Below, in pieces: positions 2,385 through 21,195 of a stretch of DNA of 21,263 nt. Origin of the DNA: a virus; the IMG/VR virus record IMGVR_UViG_3300006641_000220, positions 1 through 21,263 of that record; one strand, given 5' to 3'. The position numbers were made by a program, and so were the translations under genes. How positions within the stretch are numbered: the stretch's first letter is position 1; each line of letters opens with the position of its first letter. The notes under the pieces were generated by a model. It was given only the letters and a program-made list of their open reading frames with translations. It did not search any database and was not told where the DNA came from.

Positions 2385-2836
2385 TACTTGATACCTAATT
2401 CCGATTCAGTGATTATGCGGAACTTAATTAAACGATCCTCACACCACTCTTGAATTGATTTCCATTTTGATTGATTAATCGCATAAGTATTCACTTCGTT
2501 AATGTATGTTTTTGTTTTCTTTTTTCCTTGAATAGGTGGAACAGTTTGTTTCTTTGGTTTTATTTCTATTACATATTTTTGAACTTTACCATTACCTTCA
2601 AGAACTTCAATAATAAAGTCAGGAAAATATCTACATACTCTTTGTTTTACTGGATTATAATAAGGAATACAAAATTCTTCTGATCCATATTTTAGTATAT
2701 TAGAAGAACGGTCACACCATTGCATAAATTTTAATTCCCAACTACTTCTATACACTATATTCTGTGGATTTCCAATATATTTTTCTGGATTTCTTGGATG
2801 AAAATATCCTTGATGGTATTTGGCGTCACGAGGCAT
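2384..2836 (-). CDS. 4: Head-completion nuclease gp4
   Basis: This 150-residue protein starts at ATG 2836 (MPRDAKYHQGYF). It shows the gp4 pattern 'NPEKY.GNP..IVYRSSWELKFMQWCD' (about residues 17-42) and a PD-(D/E)XK-type nuclease core: Pro72-Asp73 in 'FPDFIIEV', and Glu91-Ile-Lys93 in 'YVIEIKPKK'. T4 gp4 is about the same length and acts in head completion before the tail joins. An in-frame ATG at 2881 would add 15 residues. I prefer 2836 because the conserved part begins there, an AAAGG ribosome-binding site precedes it, and the upstream stretch lies inside the neighbouring gene. The start overlaps the end of the upstream NUMOD gene by 11 nt, and the stop overlaps the next gene by 1 nt. Confidence 0.85.
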   Translation of the reverse strand: MPRDAKYHQGYFHPRNPEKYIGNPQNIVYRSSWELKFMQWCDRSSNILKYGSEEFCIPYYNPVKQRVCRYFPDFIIEVLEGNGKVQKYVIEIKPKKQTVPPIQGKKKTKTYINEVNTYAINQSKWKSIQEWCEDRLIKFRIITESELGIK

Positions 2837-3290
2837 TTTTCCAACCTTTATGAGATTTTCTTTTTCCGGAAAGAACTGCACCTAAATGTGATGGGTTTAA
2901 ATTTAATTCTTTACTTATTTCTGATATTGAATTAAATTTAACTACTTTACCTTCTTTTGAAATTATTGTTCCTCCTTTTTGAAATTGAGGATATTTATGT
3001 CCTTTATTATGCGCGGGTTTTCCCTTTCTTTTTTTAGCAGATTCTTTAACTGCTTTACTCATATTTCTACCCTTTGCAGCGGCTCTCATTAATTTTTTGG
3101 TTTCTTCTCTGTAACAATTTGTTTTTCCTTTATTCCAAGGTGTATGATTTTTTTCGAAACCATATAAAGGTTTGATTGGTTTCGAAAAAGTTTCATATTC
3201 TAATCTTACAATTTCTTCACCACTAGTATTAAATACTTCACATAATTTTTTAGTGTTCCAATATTCTATTTTTTTAATACTTTCTGCCAT
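2826..3290 (-). CDS. NUMOD-type DNA-binding protein, homing-endonuclease-like, no catalytic domain seen
   Basis: This 154-residue protein is taken from ATG 3290 (MAESIKKIEYW). An in-frame ATG at 3299 adds three residues. It is very basic. It has two NUMOD3-like segments, 'HTPWNKGKTN..REETKKLM' (about 50-75) and 'KRKGKPAHNKGHKYPQF' (about 88-104). A C-terminal helix-turn-helix of the IENR1/NUMOD1 sort follows, 'SISEISKELNLNPSHLGAVL' with 'GKRKSHKGW' (about 120-152). These modules bind DNA in HNH and GIY-YIG homing endonucleases. I see neither a GIY-YIG motif nor an H-N-H zinc motif, so this may be a remnant, a freestanding DNA-binding protein, or a nuclease with an unrecognised N-terminal domain. 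It overlaps gp4 by 11 nt, and its start lies in a hairpin with a late promoter. Confidence 0.7.
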   Translation of the reverse strand: MAESIKKIEYWNTKKLCEVFNTSGEEIVRLEYETFSKPIKPLYGFEKNHTPWNKGKTNCYREETKKLMRAAAKGRNMSKAVKESAKKRKGKPAHNKGHKYPQFQKGGTIISKEGKVVKFNSISEISKELNLNPSHLGAVLSGKRKSHKGWKNAS

Positions 3291-3336
3291 TTCCAGCATA
3301 CATAATATAACAGTAAAAGTATTTATAGATGGCAGA
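3283..3336. repeat. Inverted repeat TCTGCCAT/ATGGCAGA spanning the divergent start region
   Basis: TCTGCCAT at 3283-3290 and ATGGCAGA at 3329-3336 are perfect 8-bp complements. Each arm includes the start codon of one of the two divergent genes (minus-strand ATG 3290 and plus-strand ATG 3329). On the minus strand the late promoter TATAAATA lies in the loop. Part of the match follows from both proteins starting Met-Ala-Asp/Glu, so chance symmetry is possible. Confidence 0.55.
3320..3327 (-). promoter_or_regulatory. T4-type late promoter TATAAATA (minus strand)
   Basis: Read on the minus strand, 3327 to 3320 is the exact T4 late consensus TATAAATA. It lies 29 nt upstream of the NUMOD gene ATG at 3290, so a transcript beginning 6-7 nt downstream would have a leader of about 24 nt. 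It can serve the run NUMOD - gp4 - 129 aa - gp48 - gp53. It touches the start of the divergent gp54 gene. Confidence 0.7.
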
Positions 3337-4303
3337 TCCAACATTTGGATTTACACTCGCTCAACAAGGAATAAATCTTGCCACAGGTGTCCCAGCACCA
3401 TCTTCAGTTACCACTTCAGGAACTGGAGTTAGTCCGGGAAATTCTTTTAATTCTTCTCAGACTATGCCGTCTGCCCCTGCCCCTCAAATAGTTCCTAATT
3501 TTGAAATAAAACAAAAGTTATTAAGACCTGCACTAACTTCACATTTTCAATGTTGGTTTAATCCTCCAGATGTTCCAGAGATAAGAAAGTATTATTTTGA
3601 AAACCAAAAAGGAGGTACTATTAGTTTATTATGTAGTGATTCATCTTTACCAGGATCTTCTATTTTAACTAATGATATTAATGATGATTATACGGGCGTA
3701 ACTGAAAGACTTGGATATCGTAGACAGTATGATAATGCTACTGACTTTACTTTTTATGTTGATCACGGCACAGGGAATGGTGGATATAATGTTATCAGAT
3801 TATTTGAAGCTTGGATTAGATATTCTATGGGAGAAACAGTAGAAGCTCCAGATTCAAATTATCATTATAGAGTAAGATATCCAGACGAACCAAAAATTGG
3901 ATACAGAACAGAAATTTTTGTTCAAAAATTTGAAAGAGACTTTTTAGGAAATTACCTAGAGTATGTTTTTGTGAAAGCATTTCCAATTGCGATTGCTTCG
4001 ATGCCTGTTTCTTATAATGCTTCTGAACTTTTAAAGTGTACTGTTTCATTTACATATAATCGTTATGTGTTAAGAAGTCGTCAAAATATAATAGAATCGG
4101 AACCAACACCTACAACACCTCCAGGAGTTCCAAAACTTTCTTCAGCACCAATAACAGGGGGATCTCAAACTGGACCTATTGATTATGATTATCAATTAGG
4201 GGTTGTTCCGGGTCAATTTACAGTTCCTATTGGTCAAGGAGGAGCTGCTGATTTATTTGGTGGACTTGGTGGAATAGGAGTAAGAAATCCCGTTCAACAG
4301 TAG
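3329..4303 (+). CDS. 54: Baseplate tail-tube initiator gp54
   Basis: This 324-residue protein is close in length to T4 gp54 (about 320). After a Ser/Thr/Pro-rich N-terminus (residues 1-60), the tube-like domain begins 'NFEIKQKLLRPALTSHFQCW' and continues with 'NPPDVPEIRKYYFENQKGG', 'GVTERLGYRRQYDNATDFTF' and 'LLKCTVSFTYNRYVLRS'. The C-terminus is Gly/Pro rich. In T4, gp54 with gp48 sits on the hub and nucleates gp19 tail-tube assembly. It is the first gene of the plus-strand tail run and diverges from the minus-strand genes. No clear Shine-Dalgarno sequence and no consensus late promoter are visible on this strand immediately upstream. Confidence 0.83.
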   Translation: MADPTFGFTLAQQGINLATGVPAPSSVTTSGTGVSPGNSFNSSQTMPSAPAPQIVPNFEIKQKLLRPALTSHFQCWFNPPDVPEIRKYYFENQKGGTISLLCSDSSLPGSSILTNDINDDYTGVTERLGYRRQYDNATDFTFYVDHGTGNGGYNVIRLFEAWIRYSMGETVEAPDSNYHYRVRYPDEPKIGYRTEIFVQKFERDFLGNYLEYVFVKAFPIAIASMPVSYNASELLKCTVSFTYNRYVLRSRQNIIESEPTPTTPPGVPKLSSAPITGGSQTGPIDYDYQLGVVPGQFTVPIGQGGAADLFGGLGGIGVRNPVQQ

Positions 4304-4342: not shown

Positions 4343-5062
4343 ATGCCTTTACCTAAAATTTCTACGCCAACTTATGAACTTGAATTGCCATCTACAGGAC
4401 AAACAATCAAGTATAGACCTTTTTTAGTAAAAGAAGAAAAACTTTTGGTTCTTGCATTAGAATCTGAAGATACGAAACAGATTACTACTGCTATTAAAAC
4501 AGTTATTAAAAATTGTATTGAAACGAAAGGAATTAAAATAGAAGCACTTCCTACATTTGATATTGAATATCTCTTTCTCAATATTCGTGGAAAGTCTGTT
4601 GGAGAAGAGATTGAATTGAATGTAATTTGTCCTGATGATGGAGAAACTACAGTTCCTTTCAGCATTAATGTTGACGACATTAAAGTTCAAAAAAATCCAG
4701 AACATAATAATAAAATTAAACTTGATGACTCTATTATGATGGAAATGAAATATCCATCATTAGAACAATTTATTAAGAGTAATTTTGATTTATCTGCGGA
4801 CAATACTGTAGATCAATCATTTGAATTAATTGCTTCATGTATTGGTAAAATTTTTACTGAAGATGAAGTGTGGGTTGCAGAAGATGTTACTAAAAAAGAA
4901 ATGATTGAGTTCTTGGATCAAATGAATACAACTCAATTTAAGCAAATTGAGAAATTTTTTGAAACAATGCCCAAACTTTCTCATACCATTAAAGTAGTAA
5001 ATCCAAAAACAAAGGTCGAAAGTGAAGTTGTTTTAGAAGGGTTATCAAGTTTTTTCGCATAA
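4343..5062 (+). CDS. 26: Baseplate hub/tail-assembly protein gp26
   Basis: This 239-residue protein (MPLPKISTPTYELELPS) has the T4 baseplate gp26 pattern: 'YRPFLVKEEKLLVLALES' (about 25-42), 'LPTFDIEYLFLNIRGKSVGE' (about 68-87), then a cysteine-containing beta segment and a helical C-terminal half. T4 gp26 is about 208 aa and acts in hub assembly. It lies directly upstream of gp51 and the tape-measure-like genes, the place where other tailed phages encode the tail-assembly chaperone. Its last codons are AGT TTT TTC GCA TAA. The embedded T TTT TTC is a canonical -1 slippery site (see the separate entry), so some ribosomes may make a longer gp26-gp51 fusion. No convincing Shine-Dalgarno sequence precedes the ATG. 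Confidence 0.85.
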   Translation: MPLPKISTPTYELELPSTGQTIKYRPFLVKEEKLLVLALESEDTKQITTAIKTVIKNCIETKGIKIEALPTFDIEYLFLNIRGKSVGEEIELNVICPDDGETTVPFSINVDDIKVQKNPEHNNKIKLDDSIMMEMKYPSLEQFIKSNFDLSADNTVDQSFELIASCIGKIFTEDEVWVAEDVTKKEMIEFLDQMNTTQFKQIEKFFETMPKLSHTIKVVNPKTKVESEVVLEGLSSFFA

Positions 5063-5093
5063 GTATGTCTCACATGAACCTGGAGAGTTACTT
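5050..5093 (+). promoter_or_regulatory. Probable programmed -1 ribosomal frameshift site (T TTT TTC) with downstream stem
   Basis: The heptamer T TTT TTC (5050-5056) lies in the gp26 frame as AGT TTT TTC, one codon before the stop. Slipping back one base gives TTT TTT CGC ATA AGT ATG, which enters the gp51 frame with no stop, because the gp51 ATG (5065) is in that frame. Downstream, 5061-5065 can pair with 5089-5093 (AAGTA/TACTT) and 5068-5071 with 5083-5086 (TCTC/GAGA), separated by a 2x2 internal loop. That stem starts 4 nt after the heptamer, about the spacing used by stimulatory structures. The predicted fusion is 300 residues (238 from gp26, 62 from the new frame). The heptamer and frames are seen directly. 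Its use is inferred by analogy with lambda G/GT. Confidence 0.75.
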
Positions 5094-5244
5094 TAGATTA
5101 AATTTTTCTCTCATGCAGTTTCATAAATATTCATTGACAGAAATTGAAAATATGATACCTTGGGAGCGAGACATTTATGTTGGACTTCTTAAGAATCATC
5201 TAGAAGAAGAAGAATTAAAACAACAACAGCAGCAAAATCGATAA
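5065..5244 (+). CDS. 51: gp51-like hub/tail assembly protein, possible frameshift partner of gp26
   Basis: This short gene encodes 59 residues (MSHMNLESYFRLNFSLMQ). A second in-frame Met follows three codons later. It contains 'FHKYSLTEIENMIPWERDIY', which resembles the T-like half of frameshifted tail-assembly chaperones, where a helix and an 'E...mP.wer..y' motif recur. It ends in acidic residues and a Gln run (EEEELKQ, then five Q). Cyanophage annotations usually call this small protein gp51 (hub assembly catalyst), although T4 gp51 is much longer (about 249 aa). It begins 2 nt after the gp26 stop with no good Shine-Dalgarno sequence nearby, and the tape-measure-like gene follows after 1 nt. 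Both facts fit expression by frameshifting or tight coupling. Confidence 0.75.
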   Translation: MSHMNLESYFRLNFSLMQFHKYSLTEIENMIPWERDIYVGLLKNHLEEEELKQQQQQNR

Positions 5245-5245
5245 G

Positions 5246-7492
5246 ATGGCTCCAGTATCCGAAAAAGTAGATGAAAGAATCCTAAGGTTACTTGGACTTG
5301 AGTTTGTTTTTGATCTTGATTATGGAACTTATATAACGCTTTTAAATGAGGCAATAATTTCTGGTAGAACTAGATTGCCTCAAGAAGAACTTGCGTTATT
5401 ATCAAACGAAAAGAAAAGAATACGCGGAAAACAAGGTAGATTTAGACCACAAAAACAAAAGATAACAGCGGATAAATTAGCAACAACAAAATTTCTTAAA
5501 CCTGTTGTTCAACCTGTTTCATCTCCAGTTTTACCACCTCAGGTACAAGCACCTGCTACACCACCTCCTATAAATTTATCACCTCTCGAAGGACCTCTTG
5601 AATCAATTAAGGCAACTTTACAACAGTTTTTAAAGTTTAGAAAAGGTGTAGATGAGCAAGAAAGAAGAGGTTATGAGGCAGCAAGAAGAGCAAAAAGAGA
5701 AGCAGTTTTAGAAAATGCACAAAAAGGAATGTCTGCCGTCTCAAATACGGTTAGTAAATTTATATCACCATTTCAAAATATTGTAGATCGTATTTGGAGA
5801 TTTATATTTTTTACTTTATTAGGAAGAGCATTTACTCAACTTATAAATTGGTTTAGTGATCCTACTAATCAAAAGAAAGCTCAAACACTTCAAAGATTTT
5901 TCAAAGACTGGTGGCCTACTCTTTTAGGTGCTGCAGTTTTATTTTTTACTCCTTTTGGTAGATTTGTAAGAGGAGTTTTAAGAATCGTTGGAGGTTTAAC
6001 AGGAAAACTAGTAGCACAAATACCAAAAATTGGTGGTGCTATTAATGCACTTAAACGTGTTCTATTGAGGAATCCTTTACTTGCAACTTTGGCAATCGGA
6101 ACTGCAGCAGCTGGTGGAGTTGCAGCAACCATAAATTACTTCAATCAAAGACAACAAAAAGAAGAAGAGAGTCCAGAAGTTGCTTCTGCTGAACAACAAG
6201 TACAGCAATTTTCTTCAGGCGGTTCTATTTTAAACTCTTTATTTGGGATTAATAAAACCAGCCCATACACTCAAATGTTTGGATATGGAGGAATAACTAA
6301 CAACACTGGACAAAGAATATCGGGTTTTGGTCCAGATACTCAATTAATTGCTGCACAACCCGGAGAAATAGTAATTAATAAGAGGACTGTTGATGCTGTT
6401 GGTTCTGATACACTTTTAAATCTAAACAGATATTATGGTGGTCCTGGATCTAACCGACCAAAGTTAGGAAGATTATTTAATACTGGTGGAGAAGTTGGTG
6501 GAAATCAATCTCCTTTAGTTAATTCTAGAGCATTTTATATTTACAACAAATTGATATCAAAAGGATTGTCACCAACTGCTGCTATGGGAATTGTTGCAAA
6601 TATTGGTGTAGAAACTGGATATACTTATAACCCTTCCACTAATCAACAAGGAGGTGGACCTGGAAGAGGAATTGTTCAATGGGAAAAAGGTGGAAGATTT
6701 GACACGGATAAGATTAATCTTATGGACTTCGCAAGGTCTAAAAAAAGTAATTGGAATAATCTAGGAACTCAAATTGACTTTATCGTTCATGAATTGAATA
6801 ATCATCCAGAATTCATACCATTAAGATCGCAATTAAACAAAGCAAAAGATATTACTGAAGCAACTCAATTATTTTTAACAAGATATGAAAAAGCGGGAGT
6901 CAGTCATTTAGATCGAAGACTTGAGGTTGGGCAACAACTTCAACAAAGAATAACTGCCGCAAAACCTACTCCAAAAAAAGAAACCAAAGAGGAGAAAAAA
7001 CCTTGGTATGATCCATTTGGGTGGTTTAGTGGTAAGAAAAAAAATCAAAAAGTTGAAAAGAAACAAGGTGGAGGAATTGTAGGTGTAACACCAAATACCG
7101 GAACAAAGATTCCATCTTCCGCATTTTTTGGTTCAGATACTCAATATTTTCCTCCTTTTGCTGCTGCACCAGGAGAATCTCTTGTTGTACTTACTAAAAA
7201 ATCAGTTGAAGAAGGAGCTATTCCTAAAGTAGAGAATTTAATTGCAGGACTTGATCCAAATTCAAATCCAGCAAAAGGACTTAATTATCGTTCAGATCCA
7301 AAAATACCAGAAATAAAACCACTTTCTAATAAGAATAATCAAGTTACATATTTACCTGACATAAATCAGTCAGCATCTAAACCTTCTAGTTCGGGTGATG
7401 GTGGTGGAGCTCAAGTACCTCCATTCTCACCAATTTCGCCTAAGAGTGTGAGATCTATTCAACTTACAATATATGGAATTAAGGGTGTATAA
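5246..7492 (+). CDS. Tape-measure-like tail protein with phage tail lysozyme domain
   Basis: This 748-residue protein has the layout of a tail-length tape measure. Residues 1-140 are charged and Pro-rich. A hydrophobic block at about 180-300 includes 'RIWRFIFFTLLGRAFTQLINW', 'WWPTLLGAAVLFFTPFG' and 'LLATLAIGTAAAGGVAAT'. The tape-measure motif 'AAQPGEIVINKRTVDAVG' is near 370 and a second copy, 'AAAPGESLVVLTKKSVEEG', is near 640. Residues about 425-568 match the phage tail lysozyme type (Phage_lysozyme2): 'LSPTAAMGIVANIGVETGY' with Glu456 as the likely catalytic acid, then 'GRGIVQWEKGGRF'. It probably sits inside the tail tube and helps degrade peptidoglycan during DNA entry. It follows gp51 by 1 nt. 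It shares an N-terminal motif with the next gene, so the two look like paralogues. Which of them corresponds to T4 gp29 is unclear. Confidence 0.75.
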   Translation: MAPVSEKVDERILRLLGLEFVFDLDYGTYITLLNEAIISGRTRLPQEELALLSNEKKRIRGKQGRFRPQKQKITADKLATTKFLKPVVQPVSSPVLPPQVQAPATPPPINLSPLEGPLESIKATLQQFLKFRKGVDEQERRGYEAARRAKREAVLENAQKGMSAVSNTVSKFISPFQNIVDRIWRFIFFTLLGRAFTQLINWFSDPTNQKKAQTLQRFFKDWWPTLLGAAVLFFTPFGRFVRGVLRIVGGLTGKLVAQIPKIGGAINALKRVLLRNPLLATLAIGTAAAGGVAATINYFNQRQQKEEESPEVASAEQQVQQFSSGGSILNSLFGINKTSPYTQMFGYGGITNNTGQRISGFGPDTQLIAAQPGEIVINKRTVDAVGSDTLLNLNRYYGGPGSNRPKLGRLFNTGGEVGGNQSPLVNSRAFYIYNKLISKGLSPTAAMGIVANIGVETGYTYNPSTNQQGGGPGRGIVQWEKGGRFDTDKINLMDFARSKKSNWNNLGTQIDFIVHELNNHPEFIPLRSQLNKAKDITEATQLFLTRYEKAGVSHLDRRLEVGQQLQQRITAAKPTPKKETKEEKKPWYDPFGWFSGKKKNQKVEKKQGGGIVGVTPNTGTKIPSSAFFGSDTQYFPPFAAAPGESLVVLTKKSVEEGAIPKVENLIAGLDPNSNPAKGLNYRSDPKIPEIKPLSNKNNQVTYLPDINQSASKPSSSGDGGGAQVPPFSPISPKSVRSIQLTIYGIKGV

Positions 7493-7494
7493 CT

Positions 7495-10389
7495 ATGGCA
7501 ATTGATCCTAAAAAGTTATTACCACCATCAAAAATATCATCAGCACTTTCTACTGCAGATTTTTCAAGATTTTCTATTCAGAGAAGAACCTCTGAAGTTA
7601 AAAGAGTAGCAAAATTATCTCAAAAATATAATGAGCAAAATGTTAATTTAATGCGAAAGTCTCTACTTGATGTAGATACTCTTTTAAAATCAGTTCTAGG
7701 TGAAAATAAAACAACAGAGGAAACAAAAAGAAAAAGAAAAGAAAGAGAAGAATATGAAGAAAGAGAATCGGAATTAGAACTTCCAAAATCACAAAGAAAA
7801 TTTAGATTACCTACCGTATCACTTCCAGGAATGAGTTTTCTGGATAGAGTAAAAAGGTTCTTGTTATTTACAGGAATTGGTTGGTTATTTACAAATTTTC
7901 AAGATCAATTACCAAAGTTACTTGGAATCATAAAAATCATCACTCCAATTTATGGCGTAGTAGAAAATGTATTTAAATTTATATTATCATCTGTAGTTAA
8001 TTTCATTGAGCGTGGATATGAGACTTATGATAAGATTAGAGCGTTAGTTAGAAGTGTAGGTGGTGAGGGAGCTCAACAATCTTTTGATGCGTTATCCTCA
8101 AGATTAAATGAATATATTAACTATATCTTGATTGGTGGAATGGCACTGACTGGTGCTATTGCTGCTTTTGCAACTAATGTAAGTAAGATTAGACTACCAC
8201 AAAAACCAAGTACGAGACCAGCCGCAACAGGAACTGCTGCAGGAAGACCTGGAGTTACTACAGGAAGAGGTGGAATACCTGTTCGATCTACAACTGCTAG
8301 AATAACAACAAGTGGTGGAAGATTAGCGGAAAGAAATATAGCAAAAAATATTTTAAGAAGAACTGTCAAACCAGTTTTATCAAAATTGCCTATTGTTGGA
8401 GCACTAATTGAATTTGGACTTTCTTGGGCACTTGGAGATCCTGTAGGTAAGGCAGCATTTAGAGGTGTTGGTTCTCTGTTGGTTGGTGCTGTTGGAACTG
8501 CAATTGGTGGTCCTATTGGTGCTGCTATTGGTGGTATAGTTGGTGGAGAAGTTGGTGGAAGAGTTTATGATATTTTCTTTGGAGGTAAGACTCCTCCAGC
8601 ATATAAAAATGGTGGAATGGTAATTAGATCTTATGCTAAAGGTGGAGGAGTTTTAGGTAGTTATGAATTGAGAAGAACAATTGAAGTTGAGAGAACAAGA
8701 AAACCAACACCACCATCGCAATCAACTCAACCAGGAAGAGACGTTGGTGGACAAAAGGAGATTAAAAAACTCTTTCCGAATCCAAATGAAAGTCTTTTAA
8801 ATATTGGACAACAAAAACCAAATCCATATTATGCACTTACTAATACTGCAACTGACTTTAAGAGCACTCCATATGGACTTGGTGCTTTAATGGGAGGTGC
8901 AATTGATGTTGCACTTGGACAAAAATTATCCGACTCTACAATTTTAAATACAAGTGTTGGACTTGAAAATATGTTTTATGATAATTATGATAAAAATAGA
9001 AATTTTATTGATGTTCGTTCTATCATTTTTAGTGCAGTAAGAAGTGCAGCTAATTCAGCATTAATGAATGTTAAAGATGAATTAAATAAAGGAAAAATTA
9101 TAAAGAAAGAAAAACCAAAACAAACAGATCAAACTCAAACGGCAACTAGGGATCAAGTTACTCCAAGTGGTACTCCTGGAGGAGTTGATGTTAGTGGTGC
9201 AGTTGTTGGATATGTTGGTTCTACTGGAAGAAGTTCAGGTCCGCATATACACATTGAAACTGGTGATGGATATTCTGGTAAAGGTGGAGAAATTCCGGGA
9301 TATGTTTTGGATAATATTATCGTAAATGGAAAACCATTATCTAAACATCCTAGAGGAGACGGATTAGGTGCAGGAAGAGGACACAGAGGATTTGATTTTC
9401 CAATGAATGGTAGAGAACCAATTGTTTTAAAAGGAGGACTTAAGTTTGTTGAATATGATGCAGGATATAATGCTGGTTATGGTAATTCTTTAATAATAGC
9501 AGATTCTTCTGGAAGAAAATATTTGATAGGACATTTATCCGGTGGTCCAAGTAATCCTAAGCAAATTAAAGAACTTCAAGAAAAGCAAAAAGTTGCGTCT
9601 GTAGGAAGATTAGATGATACTACTGGTTCTAAAAAAGAGGAATCATCTACTCCAGTTGGGTCTGGAAAAATCGGTAGTATTCAGAAGAGAGCATTGGATA
9701 TTATAGGTAAGTATGAATCAGATTCTGTTGGTGGATATAATGCTGTTAATCAAATAGGTATATCTGGCGGAAGAAGAGTTTTACCCGGATCTTTTTCTGG
9801 CGATTTTCGTCAAATGAAACAGCATAAAGGAAGAGCATTGACTGATATGACAATTGGTGAAATAATGGCACTTCAGGCAGAAAGACGAGGAATGTCAAAT
9901 GAAGAATGGATAAAGCAAGGTAGATTGCACGCAGTCGGAAGATACCAGTTTATTGGTGGTACTTTACCTGGAGTTGTGGCTAGAGCAGGAATTCCGACAA
10001 GTGCTAAATTTACTCCAGAAGTTCAGGATAAACTTGCATTTCAGTATCTAAAAGAGGCTGGTATTGGTGCTTGGGTAGGACCTAGTGATAGAGCATCAAA
10101 AGAAGAAAAAGCAATTGTAGAGCAAGCAAGAAAAGCAAAACAAGGTGGATTAGTTTCTTCAATATCACCATCAGGTAATTATGTTTTACCAAAAGATTCC
10201 TCCGCAGATACAAAATCACTGGAACAATATCCATCTTATGCGGAAGGTGGAATGAGAACGAAGATTGCAATTCAAAGAGTTATTGTTGAAAAAATGATAC
10301 CTATTCCTACTCAAGGAAGAACAAAAACTGCTGACTTTAGAATTGCTGGTTCTGGTGTAAATAATAACATGGCTTTACATAGGGGATAA
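7495..10389 (+). CDS. Large tape-measure-like/hub protein with M23-like peptidase and lysozyme-like domains
   Basis: This 964-residue protein has a charged N-terminus (to about 115), a hydrophobic region from 'DRVKRFLLFTGIGWLFTN', and a Gly-rich membrane-like stretch near 330-350. A peptidoglycan-hydrolase half follows. Residues about 568-705 carry every M23 peptidase motif but in changed order: 'STGRSSGPHIHIE' (His584, His586) comes first, then 'GHRGFDFP' (His630, Asp634), then 'GYGNSLIIADSSGRKYLIGH' (His680). Residues about 723-865 look like a lysozyme-fold glycosidase: 'IIGKYESDSVGGYNAVNQ' with Glu741, and 'LHAVGRYQFIGGTL' (GRYQF at 815-819), similar in style to GH104 lambda lysozyme. It is 2 nt behind the previous gene and 1 nt before the hub gene. 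It is likely a virion-associated wall-degrading tail protein; the cleaved bonds are not shown. Confidence 0.72.
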   Translation: MAIDPKKLLPPSKISSALSTADFSRFSIQRRTSEVKRVAKLSQKYNEQNVNLMRKSLLDVDTLLKSVLGENKTTEETKRKRKEREEYEERESELELPKSQRKFRLPTVSLPGMSFLDRVKRFLLFTGIGWLFTNFQDQLPKLLGIIKIITPIYGVVENVFKFILSSVVNFIERGYETYDKIRALVRSVGGEGAQQSFDALSSRLNEYINYILIGGMALTGAIAAFATNVSKIRLPQKPSTRPAATGTAAGRPGVTTGRGGIPVRSTTARITTSGGRLAERNIAKNILRRTVKPVLSKLPIVGALIEFGLSWALGDPVGKAAFRGVGSLLVGAVGTAIGGPIGAAIGGIVGGEVGGRVYDIFFGGKTPPAYKNGGMVIRSYAKGGGVLGSYELRRTIEVERTRKPTPPSQSTQPGRDVGGQKEIKKLFPNPNESLLNIGQQKPNPYYALTNTATDFKSTPYGLGALMGGAIDVALGQKLSDSTILNTSVGLENMFYDNYDKNRNFIDVRSIIFSAVRSAANSALMNVKDELNKGKIIKKEKPKQTDQTQTATRDQVTPSGTPGGVDVSGAVVGYVGSTGRSSGPHIHIETGDGYSGKGGEIPGYVLDNIIVNGKPLSKHPRGDGLGAGRGHRGFDFPMNGREPIVLKGGLKFVEYDAGYNAGYGNSLIIADSSGRKYLIGHLSGGPSNPKQIKELQEKQKVASVGRLDDTTGSKKEESSTPVGSGKIGSIQKRALDIIGKYESDSVGGYNAVNQIGISGGRRVLPGSFSGDFRQMKQHKGRALTDMTIGEIMALQAERRGMSNEEWIKQGRLHAVGRYQFIGGTLPGVVARAGIPTSAKFTPEVQDKLAFQYLKEAGIGAWVGPSDRASKEEKAIVEQARKAKQGGLVSSISPSGNYVLPKDSSADTKSLEQYPSYAEGGMRTKIAIQRVIVEKMIPIPTQGRTKTADFRIAGSGVNNNMALHRG

Positions 10390-18681: not shown

Positions 18682-18689
18682 GTTTTTAT

Positions 18690-18763
18690 GGCGGAGTAGC
18701 CCAAGGGAAGGAGGCACCGAACTTAAAATTCGTACAGTATGGGTTCGAATCCCATCTCCGCTA
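18690..18763 (+). tRNA. tRNA-Leu(UAA)
   Basis: A 74-nt cloverleaf. The acceptor GGCGGAG pairs with CTCCGCT (first pair G-U). U8-A9 is present, the D arm is GCC...GGC, and the anticodon loop CTTAAAA has the UAA anticodon at 18724-18726. The anticodon stem has four pairs plus a C-U mismatch at its base. The T arm is ATGGG/CCCAT with loop TTCGAAT, and the discriminator is A. No CCA is encoded. The variable region is only ACAGT, whereas bacterial and T4 tRNA-Leu normally have a long variable arm. The anticodon defines Leu for codons UUA/UUG. Confidence 0.85.
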
Positions 18764-18805
18764 TTAGAAGACATAAGTATAAATAAATGTAGTTATGTCT
18801 TCTAA
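18764..18805 (+). promoter_or_regulatory. Inverted repeat with late promoter in its loop, covering the start of an HNH gene
   Basis: TTAGAAGACATAA (18764-18776) and TTATGTCTTCTAA (18793-18805) form a perfect 13-bp stem. The 16-nt loop contains TATAAATA (18778-18785), the exact T4 late consensus. The HNH start codon (18795) is inside the right arm. A read-through transcript from upstream would hide the start in the stem, while a late transcript starting near 18791 lacks the left arm. This is the layout known for T4 genes e, soc, 49 and I-TevI. Confidence 0.8.
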
Positions 18806-19268
18806 AATGCTAAGAAACGGATATAAATCTTCTGATGCTGAATTTGTTGACGCAGTAAAGACCTCTAATTCTATTAGGGAAGCACTGATTAAATTAAATC
18901 TAAAAGCAGCAGGTGGAAATTATCAATGTTTTCATAAAAGAGCAAAAGAACTGAATATTTCTATAGATCATTTTACTGATCCTAAAGTATGGAACAAAAA
19001 TAAAAAATTTGGACCAAAAAGATCATTAGAAGAATATTTAAATGGAGTTCCTATTCAATCACACAAACTTAAATTGAGACTTATATCTGAAGGAATCAAA
19101 ATTCATCGGTGTGAGTGTTGTGGTATAACAGAATGGAGAGGACAACCTACTCCAATTGAATTAGACCATATAAACGGAATTAATTACGATAATCGTTTAG
19201 AAAATCTCCGTTTATTATGTCCAAACTGCCACGCACAAACTTCTACCTATAGAGGTAGAAATAAATAA
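18795..19268 (+). CDS. Free-standing HNH endonuclease
   Basis: This 157-residue protein begins MSSKMLRNGYKSSDAEF. An alternative start at ATG 18807 (MLRNGYKSSD) would leave a more usual leader for a transcript from the late promoter. The N-terminal 60 residues look like a helical DNA-recognition part ('NSIREALIKLNLKAAGGNY'). The C-terminal HNH core has 'CECCGITEWRG' (zinc CxxC), 'PIELDHINGINYDNRLENL' with the DH and N residues, and 'CPNCHAQT' (second CxxC, then His). Such enzymes cut DNA and help themselves spread between phage genomes. It lies directly behind tRNA-Leu and is related to the second HNH gene in the catalytic core. Its expression seems to be held back until the late phase by the hairpin at its start. 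Confidence 0.85.
   Translation: MSSKMLRNGYKSSDAEFVDAVKTSNSIREALIKLNLKAAGGNYQCFHKRAKELNISIDHFTDPKVWNKNKKFGPKRSLEEYLNGVPIQSHKLKLRLISEGIKIHRCECCGITEWRGQPTPIELDHINGINYDNRLENLRLLCPNCHAQTSTYRGRNK
19241..19260. repeat. 8-bp hairpin at the 3' end of the first HNH gene
   Basis: TTCTACCT (19241-19248) and AGGTAGAA (19253-19260) form a perfect 8-bp stem with loop ATAG. It lies inside the last codons of the HNH gene and directly precedes the possible late promoter AATAAATA (19260-19267). No U-tract follows, so termination is doubtful; a role in RNA processing or 3'-end protection is possible. Confidence 0.5.
19260..19267 (+). promoter_or_regulatory. Possible late promoter AATAAATA
   Basis: AATAAATA lies at the stop codon of the first HNH gene, 25 nt upstream of ATG 19293. 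This would give a leader of about 19 nt containing the AGGA ribosome-binding site. It fits the NATAAATA form. Confidence 0.45.
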
Positions 19269-19292
19269 AACAAAAGTATTAGGAACTATTCT

Positions 19293-19562
19293 ATGAAATA
19301 CAGAATAGATGCCAGATATGTTTGGTACAACAGAGGAACACAACTTGTTCTGATGTATTTTATCCAAAATATTCCTTTTACTTTTGATGATGTTCCAGAT
19401 AGTCTTATGTATGATTTGGAACTCATAGAACTAGCAGACAACGAAAGACGCTTTGAACCAGAGGATTTATACAAATCATCATTCTATTTGATTGATGAAG
19501 AGTGTCATCCAATGTTATTTGAAGTTGAACTGGAAAATCCAGAAATGATGCCTGCGGATTAA
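19293..19562 (+). CDS. Small acidic protein of unknown function (89 aa)
   Basis: The protein begins MKYRIDARYVWYNRGTQ and has an aromatic, beta-like N-terminal half ('LVLMYFIQNIPFTFDDVP') and an acidic C-terminal half ('LELIELADNERRFEPEDLY', 'ELENPEMMPAD'). AGGA lies 8 nt before the ATG. Its stop codon is followed within 2 nt by the tRNA-Thr gene, so both are probably on one transcript. I recognise no domain. Confidence 0.7.
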   Translation: MKYRIDARYVWYNRGTQLVLMYFIQNIPFTFDDVPDSLMYDLELIELADNERRFEPEDLYKSSFYLIDEECHPMLFEVELENPEMMPAD

Positions 19563-19563
19563 T

Positions 19564-19635
19564 GCCGAAGTAGCTCAGTGATAGAGCAGGAATTTTGTAA
19601 ATTTCAGGTCGCAGGTTTGATCCCTGTCTTCGGCT
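19564..19635 (+). tRNA. tRNA-Thr(UGU)
   Basis: A complete 72-nt cloverleaf. The acceptor GCCGAAG/CTTCGGC has seven Watson-Crick pairs. The D arm is GCTC/GAGC, the anticodon arm GGAAT/ATTTC with loop TTTGTAA (anticodon TGT at 19596-19598), the variable loop AGGTC, and the T arm GCAGG/CCTGT with loop TTTGATC. The discriminator is T and no CCA is encoded. It reads ACA and related Thr codons, common in this AT-rich genome. Confidence 0.92.
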
Positions 19636-19652
19636 TAACTAAATAATATCAC

Positions 19653-19726
19653 CTGGATGTCTGCAAACTTCAGGTGGAGGGTGGAAGTCCCTCCTTTTCA
19701 ATATAAATAGAAATGCAGACATCTAG
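19653..19726 (+). promoter_or_regulatory. Inverted repeat with inner hairpin and late promoter before the second HNH gene
   Basis: CTGGATGTCTGCA (19653-19665) pairs with TGCAGACATCTAG (19714-19726): 13 bp with one G-U. Inside lie a hairpin, GGAGGG (19676-19681) with CCCTCC (19689-19694) followed by TTTT, and the late promoter TATAAATA (19702-19709). A transcript from that promoter would start near 19716 and lack the left arm. The right arm ends 9 nt before the HNH ATG and covers part of its leader. CACCTG (19650-19655) and CAGGTG (19671-19676) offer a competing fold. Confidence 0.7.
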
Positions 19727-19735
19727 AGTAGAACT

Positions 19736-20347
19736 ATGCCTAACTGGACAGAGGAAGGTTTCCAGCGTATTATTGATGCTGGACAAAGAGGTGGTTTAAC
19801 AACAAAAGAAAAATTTAAAAAAATTAAAGAAGAATACTATAAAAATCCTAAATTATGTTTAAACTGTAATAAAGGAATATTATACGAAAGAAAAAACGAA
19901 AATAAATTTTGCAGTAGTTCTTGTTCTGCTAAATTTTTTAACACTAAAAGAAAAAAAGAAAAAAATTGTTTAGTCTGTGATAATGAAGTTAAGAAAGGAG
20001 CATCAAAATATTGCTCACTTAAATGTCAAAAAACATATCATTTTAACCAAAGATTATCTGATTGGATAAATGGAGATTCTACAACAAAATCAAGAGATTT
20101 TTTTAGAAGATATTTAACAGAAACTTACGGATACAAATGTTCTTGCTGTCATATTACTGAATGGAATGGAAAATCAATTGTTTTGGAGATAGATCACATA
20201 GATGGAAATTCTGAAAATAATAGACCAGAAAATTTAAGATTTATTTGTCCAAACTGTCATTCACAAACTGACACTTACAAAGGAAAAAATGTTGGTAAAG
20301 GAAGACATTATAGAAGAGAAAGATATGCGGCTGGACAGAGTTACTAA
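19736..20347 (+). CDS. Free-standing HNH endonuclease with extra zinc-binding motifs
   Basis: This 203-residue protein begins MPNWTEEGFQRIIDAGQR. Residues about 40-105 contain two Cys-rich zinc-finger-like units, 'CLNCNKGIL...FCSSSCSAKF' and 'CLVCDNEVKKGASKYCSLKC'. The HNH core follows: 'CSCCHITEWNGK' (CxxC), 'LEIDHIDGNSENNRPENLR' with DH and N residues, 'CPNCHSQTDTYKGKN'. The C-terminus is basic. Its core closely resembles that of the HNH gene at 18795, so the two are related, but the N-terminal recognition parts differ, which suggests different target sites. It lies 100 nt behind tRNA-Thr, and its start is preceded by the hairpin/late-promoter arrangement. Confidence 0.87.
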   Translation: MPNWTEEGFQRIIDAGQRGGLTTKEKFKKIKEEYYKNPKLCLNCNKGILYERKNENKFCSSSCSAKFFNTKRKKEKNCLVCDNEVKKGASKYCSLKCQKTYHFNQRLSDWINGDSTTKSRDFFRRYLTETYGYKCSCCHITEWNGKSIVLEIDHIDGNSENNRPENLRFICPNCHSQTDTYKGKNVGKGRHYRRERYAAGQSY

Positions 20348-20380: not shown

Positions 20381-20548
20381 ATGAAGATAAATTTGTGGTT
20401 TTGTAAAGATATGAATCAATGGCGTTGGACCCTTACCGACGACTCAAGGCCTATTCTTAAACAAGAATCGGGTCAGCAACCAGATCTTCGTGCAGCAATG
20501 AATGATGTTGCAAATACCGTAGAATATATGATGAAATCCTCACACTAA
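20381..20548 (+). CDS. Small conserved phage protein (55 aa)
   Basis: The protein begins MKINLWFCKDMNQWRWTLTD, continues 'SRPILKQESGQQPDLR' and ends in an amphipathic helix, 'AAMNDVANTVEYMMKSS'. The Trp-rich strand pattern followed by a helix suggests a compact alpha/beta fold. I recall similar small proteins in cyanophages, without known function. Its TAA overlaps the ATG of the Mom-like gene by one base (TAATG), so the two are very likely translated together and may act together. A candidate host-type promoter precedes it. Confidence 0.7.
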   Translation: MKINLWFCKDMNQWRWTLTDDSRPILKQESGQQPDLRAAMNDVANTVEYMMKSSH

Positions 20549-21195
20549 TGAGTAAAAATACTCAGTACTTTATAGATAGAGTAGGTAAAGAAGAAATCAA
20601 AAATCTTCTTTATACCTACCATTATCTTAAAGACGAATCAAAAGATTTTAAAAGTGGATATAACTACGGTCTTTTCCGATCATCTGTTACTGATATTCTT
20701 CATATTGGTGAGTGCTTGGGTTGTTGTGTCTTTACTGGGTTACCCGTCCCAGAAATAGCAGTTGGTGCCTTTGGTCTTCAAAGGGATCAACAAAAAGGTC
20801 TTTATGAACTTTCTAGATTATGCGTTCATCCAGATATTCAAAAGACAGAATATAATATTACCTCTTGGTTTGTTTCAAGGTGCATAAAGAGATTTTGTAA
20901 AGAAACCAATGTAAGAGCAATATTATCATATGCAGATTCCTCACATCATTCTGGGGTCATTTATCGTGCAACAAATTTTAAGTACTACGGTCTAACAGCA
21001 CCCAAAAAAGATTTTTATTATGTTGACGGTACAAAACACTCAAGAGGAAGTGTGAAAGGTTCTGAAGGCGAATGGAGAGAAAGAAGTCGGAAGCATAGGT
21101 ATTTGATGATCTTTGATAAGCAACTCAAAAAAAGGTTGACTTGGAAAGAGGTGAAGTGGTATAATAAACAAGACGATACTGAATCGTTACAGTGA
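20548..21195 (+). CDS. Mom-like GNAT-fold protein (possible DNA base modification)
   Basis: This 215-residue protein has a pattern reminiscent of the Mu Mom family (a GNAT-fold protein that modifies adenine in phage DNA): an N-terminal 'YTYHYLKDESKDFKSGYNYG', a central 'PEIAVGAFGLQ', 'LYELSRLCVHPDIQKTEYN' (E-L-.-R-L strand), 'SWFVSRCIKRFCKETN', 'AILSYADSSHHSGVIYRAT' and 'NFKYYGLTAPKKDFYY'. The 'SYAD...H.G.IYrA.nF.Y.G' block is the most characteristic. Mom converts adenine to a carbamoylmethyl derivative and blocks host restriction. Whether this protein makes the same base is unknown, and a GNAT enzyme with another acceptor is the alternative. It follows the 55-aa gene by TAATG and is closed by a strong terminator. 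Confidence 0.65.
   Translation: MSKNTQYFIDRVGKEEIKNLLYTYHYLKDESKDFKSGYNYGLFRSSVTDILHIGECLGCCVFTGLPVPEIAVGAFGLQRDQQKGLYELSRLCVHPDIQKTEYNITSWFVSRCIKRFCKETNVRAILSYADSSHHSGVIYRATNFKYYGLTAPKKDFYYVDGTKHSRGSVKGSEGEWRERSRKHRYLMIFDKQLKKRLTWKEVKWYNKQDDTESLQ

Follow-up and report, generated by a model that had tools for sequence, protein, structure and literature searches.

The sequence analysed here is a 21-kb virus fragment from IMG/VR, attributed to a marine T4-like phage, and the whole stretch of 21,263 nucleotides is referred to below as the window. Its gp26 gene and the reading frame that corresponds to gp51 in the annotation of relatives are placed between a tail tube gene on the 5' side and large tape-measure-like genes on the 3' side (Table 1). 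This gene order, which was read from PHROG and Pfam profile matches (those to tape-measure proteins being weak), agrees with the preliminary description of this DNA, which had located the pair directly 5' of tape-measure-like genes. The two large tape-measure-like tail proteins are encoded in tandem, one carrying a phage lysozyme domain and the other a peptidase M23 domain. On the other side of the tail tube gene, a minus-strand NUMOD/I-HmuI-like frame (2826-3344), related to homing endonucleases, overlaps the start of a TnsA-like nuclease gene (2384-2881) that lies where relatives have gp4 (head completion); this frame is possibly the remnant of an inserted endonuclease gene.

Table 1. Features of the gp26/gp51 locus and its neighbours, in coordinates of the window.
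Feature	Position	Strand	Evidence or remark
Tail tube protein, upstream of gp26	3329..4303	+	PF23849 2e-8; PHROG 45 1.7e-22
gp26 / TAC-N (putative short chaperone form)	4343..5062	+	239 aa; PF12322 3.5e-77; PHROG 150 2.7e-83
Slippery heptamer T TTT TTC	5050..5056	+	T TTT TT[C/T] in 113/113 related loci
-1 frame reading (putative TAC-C; gp51 in relatives' annotation)	5056..5244	+	PHROG 634 6.9e-28; PHROG 150 positions 241-280
Candidate stimulatory stem	~5061..5093	+	MFE -8.7 kcal/mol, z -1.29
ATG, supposed start of a free gp51, unconserved	5065..5067	+	residue comparison across 112 loci
Large tail protein, lysozyme-like domain, tape-measure-like	5246..7492	+	PHROG 9570 'tape measure' 4e-14; PF18013 1.2e-28
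Second large tape-measure/peptidase-like tail protein	7495..10389	+	PHROG 167 'tape measure' 6.2e-6; PF01551 1.6e-8

The gp26 gene ends with ...TCA AGT TTT TTC GCA TAA, where the TTT and TTC codons of a T TTT TTC heptamer stand in the zero frame and are followed by one sense codon and then by the stop. After a -1 slip, the same bases would be read as TTT TTT CGC ATA AGT ATG..., and the ATG at 5065 is therefore in exactly that frame, which is open from 5' of this ATG to the TAA at 5242-5244. When the -1 product was built, it came to 300 aa. The preliminary description had thus been right on the slippery site, to the base, on the uninterrupted -1 frame that shares its phase with the gp51 ATG, and on the length of the fusion. 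To compare with chance, all in-frame slippery heptamers in the genes of the window were collected (n=60), with the -1 frame examined in plus-strand genes only: the heptamer at 5050-5056, two codons from the end of gp26, was the only one with a -1 reading of more than 28 codons (64 codons). The T TTT TTC site at the end of gp26 is more than a chance occurrence.

Relatives of gp26 were then taken from IMG/VR and from named phages, giving 113 junctions from loci that are partly non-independent. This set includes cyanophages, the pelagiphage HTVC008M, the Vibrio phages KVP40 and VH7D, the Aeromonas phages 65 and AsFcp_4, the Stenotrophomonas phages DLP_6, Yut2 and Moby, the Sinorhizobium phage phiN3, the Pseudomonas phage Astolliot and a Desulfovibrio phage; IMG/VR scans with HTVC008M, Aeromonas and DLP6 queries contributed few loci. 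A heptamer was found three codons or fewer from the gp26 stop in 113/113 junctions (T TTT TTC in 98 and T TTT TTT in 15). In 112 of them, all but S-SCSM1, the -1 frame stayed open over 58 codons or more, or up to where the contig ends. Among the 74 gap-free gp26 genes, whose mean pairwise DNA identity is 75%, the two codons of the site were TTT in 74/74 and TTC in 74/74, while elsewhere in the same genes phenylalanine was encoded 621 times by TTT and 228 times by TTC (27% TTC); none of the other conserved phenylalanine columns of gp26 was invariantly TTC. The serine codon ahead of the site was AGT or TCT only. A scan of the whole IMG/VR collection returned at least 120 stretches with a T TTT TTC junction, 2 with a base other than T before TTTTTC (one real G TTT TTC and one with a deletion) and 0 with a TTC-TTY version of the junction. 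As judged from these codon counts, the constraint at the site is one that acts on the bases, beyond Phe-Phe alone.

The preliminary description had regarded loss of the heptamer or a different frame relation in close relatives as an argument against frameshifting. The heptamer was kept in all 113 junctions and the frame relation in 112, while S-SCSM1 and four distant pairs depart from the arrangement. In Synechococcus phage S-SCSM1 (L081:2205-2260), the heptamer is kept, but an 11-nt insertion directly behind the gp26 stop interrupts the -1 frame and puts gp51 in another one. From this sequence, gp51 must use an ATG of its own, and S-SCSM1 would seem to have escaped frameshifting, unless the insertion is an error. 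In Vibrio phages D493 and BX-1, Pseudomonas phage Cygsa01 and Escherichia phage AV101 (L087, L123, L124 and L125), gp51 is still in the -1 frame and T TTT TTC is missing, the corresponding bases being A CTT TTC, C GTT TTT, C ATT TTC and A ATT TTC, respectively. In three of these four phages the gp26 stop shares bases with an ATG (TAATG), and expression of gp51 in this group may depend on a different slippery site or on coupling of stop and start.

We also looked at RNA structure downstream of the heptamer. A two-part stem starting 4 nt past the heptamer had been proposed for the window, and its position and fold were recovered; however, it is weak when taken alone, since 22/200 shuffles fold equally well, and it is not the stem that most relatives have. 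Among 24 positions compared across 81 loci, the strongest structure was that of the 45 nt past the heptamer (mean -10.0 kcal/mol; z averaging -1.49 and below -1 in 70%). A five-pair hairpin with a CAUAUG loop recurs there with different pairs (GGUCC/GGACC, GAUCC/GGAUC, GGUUC/GAACC and AGUCC/GGACU), and it was complete in 42/78 loci versus 0-1 when the partners were slid. This covariation is suggestive only, because the bases of the hairpin also encode protein. The hairpins vary by lineage, the window and some other loci having stems unlike the common one, and RNAalifold found no single consensus structure for the 78 aligned junctions.

In T4, genes 26 and 51 are two separate genes, as had been stated, but T4 gp51 is already the long form; the accompanying statement that they are far apart was wrong, since they are neighbours on opposite strands, arranged divergently. 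T4 gp26 matches PF12322 from end to end. The 249-aa T4 gp51 matches PF12322 over residues 1-201 and then carries the gp51 domain, and its PHROG 150 match reached position 280 of 282. In a profile comparison, the alignment of T4-type gp51 with the fusions ran uninterrupted over the junction (probability 99.5%, E 3e-22). This collinearity means that T4 holds the long form as a plain gene. The two systems are thus alike in that T4 gp26 belongs to PF12322 and that the C-terminal domain of T4 gp51 is homologous to that of the window, and unlike in that T4 has two adjacent divergent genes without a frameshift, whereas in the window a single gene is extended by a -1 frame. In a tree of TAC-N parts, FS, T26 and T51 formed three groups, with an arbitrary midpoint root and a long branch for RB43; this tree allows, without proving, a duplication in the T4 line. 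Reviews of T4 count gp26 and gp51 among the hub-assembly chaperones and describe gp51 as an essential protein of unknown function that the particle does not contain (PMC3004832).

An AlphaFold2 model of gp26 (pLDDT 86) was then used, residues 1-96 of which were aligned to solved structures. The best matches were 3fgx (Z 8.0; 4.1 A over 86 residues), 2ob9 (Z 7.9), 3klu (Z 7.4) and 5ir0 (Z 5.4), followed by an unrelated structure at Z 3.8. The first three, among them the HK97 chaperone 2ob9 and YqbN (3klu), have been described as phage tail-assembly chaperones (PMC9603447), as has 5ir0 (PMC12987554). With all four best matches being chaperones, the N-terminal ~90 residues of gp26 are predicted to have a tail-assembly chaperone (TAC-N) fold, although Z values of this size could stem from a common arrangement. 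Foldseek alone placed 2ob9 on top for the gp26 model with an E of 0.32, which is not significant. For a T4-like gp51 model, neither Foldseek nor VIA gave a chaperone match, and a sequence search against solved structures found nothing.

How gp51 would be started if it were a separate gene was considered next. The window's ATG at 5065 sits 2 nt past the gp26 stop; of the 112 loci read in the -1 frame, 52 have M and 55 have L at this position. In 20/113 loci, no ATG occurs among the first 10 codons of this frame, and the HTVC008M group and loci L101, L113, L120 and L122 have no ATG, GTG or TTG at all before the conserved gp51 core. By contrast, codon 8 of the -1 frame (5074 in the window, three codons beyond 5065) is an ATG in 79/112 loci, and this ATG falls in the CAUAUG loop of the hairpin. 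Annotations of relatives place the gp51 start variably or omit gp51, most of them listing a free gp51. A conserved, strong ribosome-binding site had been named as another argument against the fusion: the start is unconserved and no Shine-Dalgarno match was found at the window's gp51 ATG, but most genes of the window, gp26 included, also lack one, so that this absence says little. Shine-Dalgarno scoring was dropped as a discriminator on the same ground.

The codon-8 ATG lends some weight to a scheme in which frameshifting gives the fusion and an internal ATG (5065 or 5074 in the window) additionally gives a small C-terminal protein on its own, as does the apparent reliance of S-SCSM1 on a start of this kind. 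Neither ATG is universal, and the conserved His-Met may reflect a constraint on the protein or on the hairpin, and we consider this scheme unlikely. An extension of it, in which many of these phages also make the free C-terminal piece from the ATG in the loop of the stimulating hairpin and in which folding sets the ratio of fusion to free protein, appears distinctly improbable. We think it very improbable that gp51 is simply separate, its own ATG being served by translational coupling or by re-initiation past the gp26 stop codon, with the poly-T run being conserved Phe-Phe codons only. The closeness of the window's ATG to the gp26 stop, the codon-8 ATG of so many loci, the free gp51 of most annotations and the uninformative lack of a Shine-Dalgarno site would all fit with such a gene; against it stand the invariance of T TTT TTC at the synonymous level, the many loci without a start codon ahead of the gp51 core (HTVC008M and its relatives for example), the -1 relation kept in 112/113 loci and T4 gp51, a natural single-chain fusion. 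Finally, the T homopolymer might have suggested that one gene was split by an error of sequencing or assembly. This reading is refuted by conservation, as more than 100 contigs and isolate genomes share the frame break at an identical codon, and can be practically discarded.

Altogether, the conservation of the heptamer and of the frame, the loss of start codons, the RNA structure, the collinearity with T4 gp51 and the predicted fold make it very probable that gp26/gp51 is a single frameshift-coded tail-assembly chaperone gene (TAC-N/TAC-NC) with a short form and a slipped 300-aa form, for which T4 has two genes. The idea that gp26/gp51 is the counterpart of lambda G/GT, with gp51 as a -1 fusion, is thus supported, gene order adding to this evidence. 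In the mechanism that we propose, most ribosomes would end at the gp26 stop and make the short form, TAC-N (239 aa), while some would slip by -1 on T TTT TTC, aided by the downstream RNA structure, and make TAC-NC (300 aa). By analogy with lambda gpG/gpGT, the tape-measure protein is probably coated by TAC-N, while the additional C-terminal portion of TAC-NC probably serves to bring in components of the tail tube or hub. T4 would get the same two products from gene 26 (short) and gene 51 (long). The slippage itself, its efficiency and the binding partners of each form are what we infer here.

Like lambda gpG/gpGT and other frameshifted chaperones, this gene has a short form and a predicted -1 long form and lies between the tail tube and tape-measure genes. 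The lambda slippery heptamer is G GGA AAG; here, unlike in lambda, it is T TTT TTC one codon from the stop, and TAC-N, a member of PF12322, is far longer at 239 aa. The tail-assembly chaperone genes of T4-like phages, which are of the same gp26/gp51 families, were reportedly identified by Vladimirov, Gautam & Davidson (2022, Virology 566:9-15), who are said to have found that frameshifting is kept in several T4-like groups and that T4 uses genes 26 and 51. The idea of a frameshifted chaperone in T4-like phages, described in 2022, is hence not new, and the novelty of the present reading is low; our results on how widely the heptamer is conserved, on start-codon loss, on the downstream structure and on the exceptions may go beyond that work. 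Two papers refer to it: one states that T4-like TAC-N genes carry poly-T frameshift signals (PMC12846349, citing Vladimirov, Gautam & Davidson 2022), and the other that some T4-like phages have short and fused copies as separate genes (PMC10885494, citing the same study). In Vandenendeviridae and Andersonviridae, which are other phage families, the end of TAC-N likewise has a poly-T motif at which a -1 frameshift takes place, but the motif is GTTTTT (PMC12846349).

Records of T4-like cyanophages and pelagiphages give gp51 as a free 'baseplate hub assembly catalyst' with an arbitrary start codon, or omit it, while the sequences suggest that the real product of this region is probably the 300-aa fusion. 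T4 gp26 and gp51, long called hub-assembly factors, make sense as a tail-assembly chaperone that comes in a short and a long form, one lineage having two genes that do what others do by one frameshift.

Elsewhere in the window, genes for tRNA-Leu and tRNA-Thr lie within 18689-20347, each followed by an HNH homing-endonuclease-like gene (18795-19268 and 19736-20347). Farther on, the plus strand encodes a Mom-family protein (20548-21195; PF25680, 5.6e-22), likely a DNA-modification gene of the phage.
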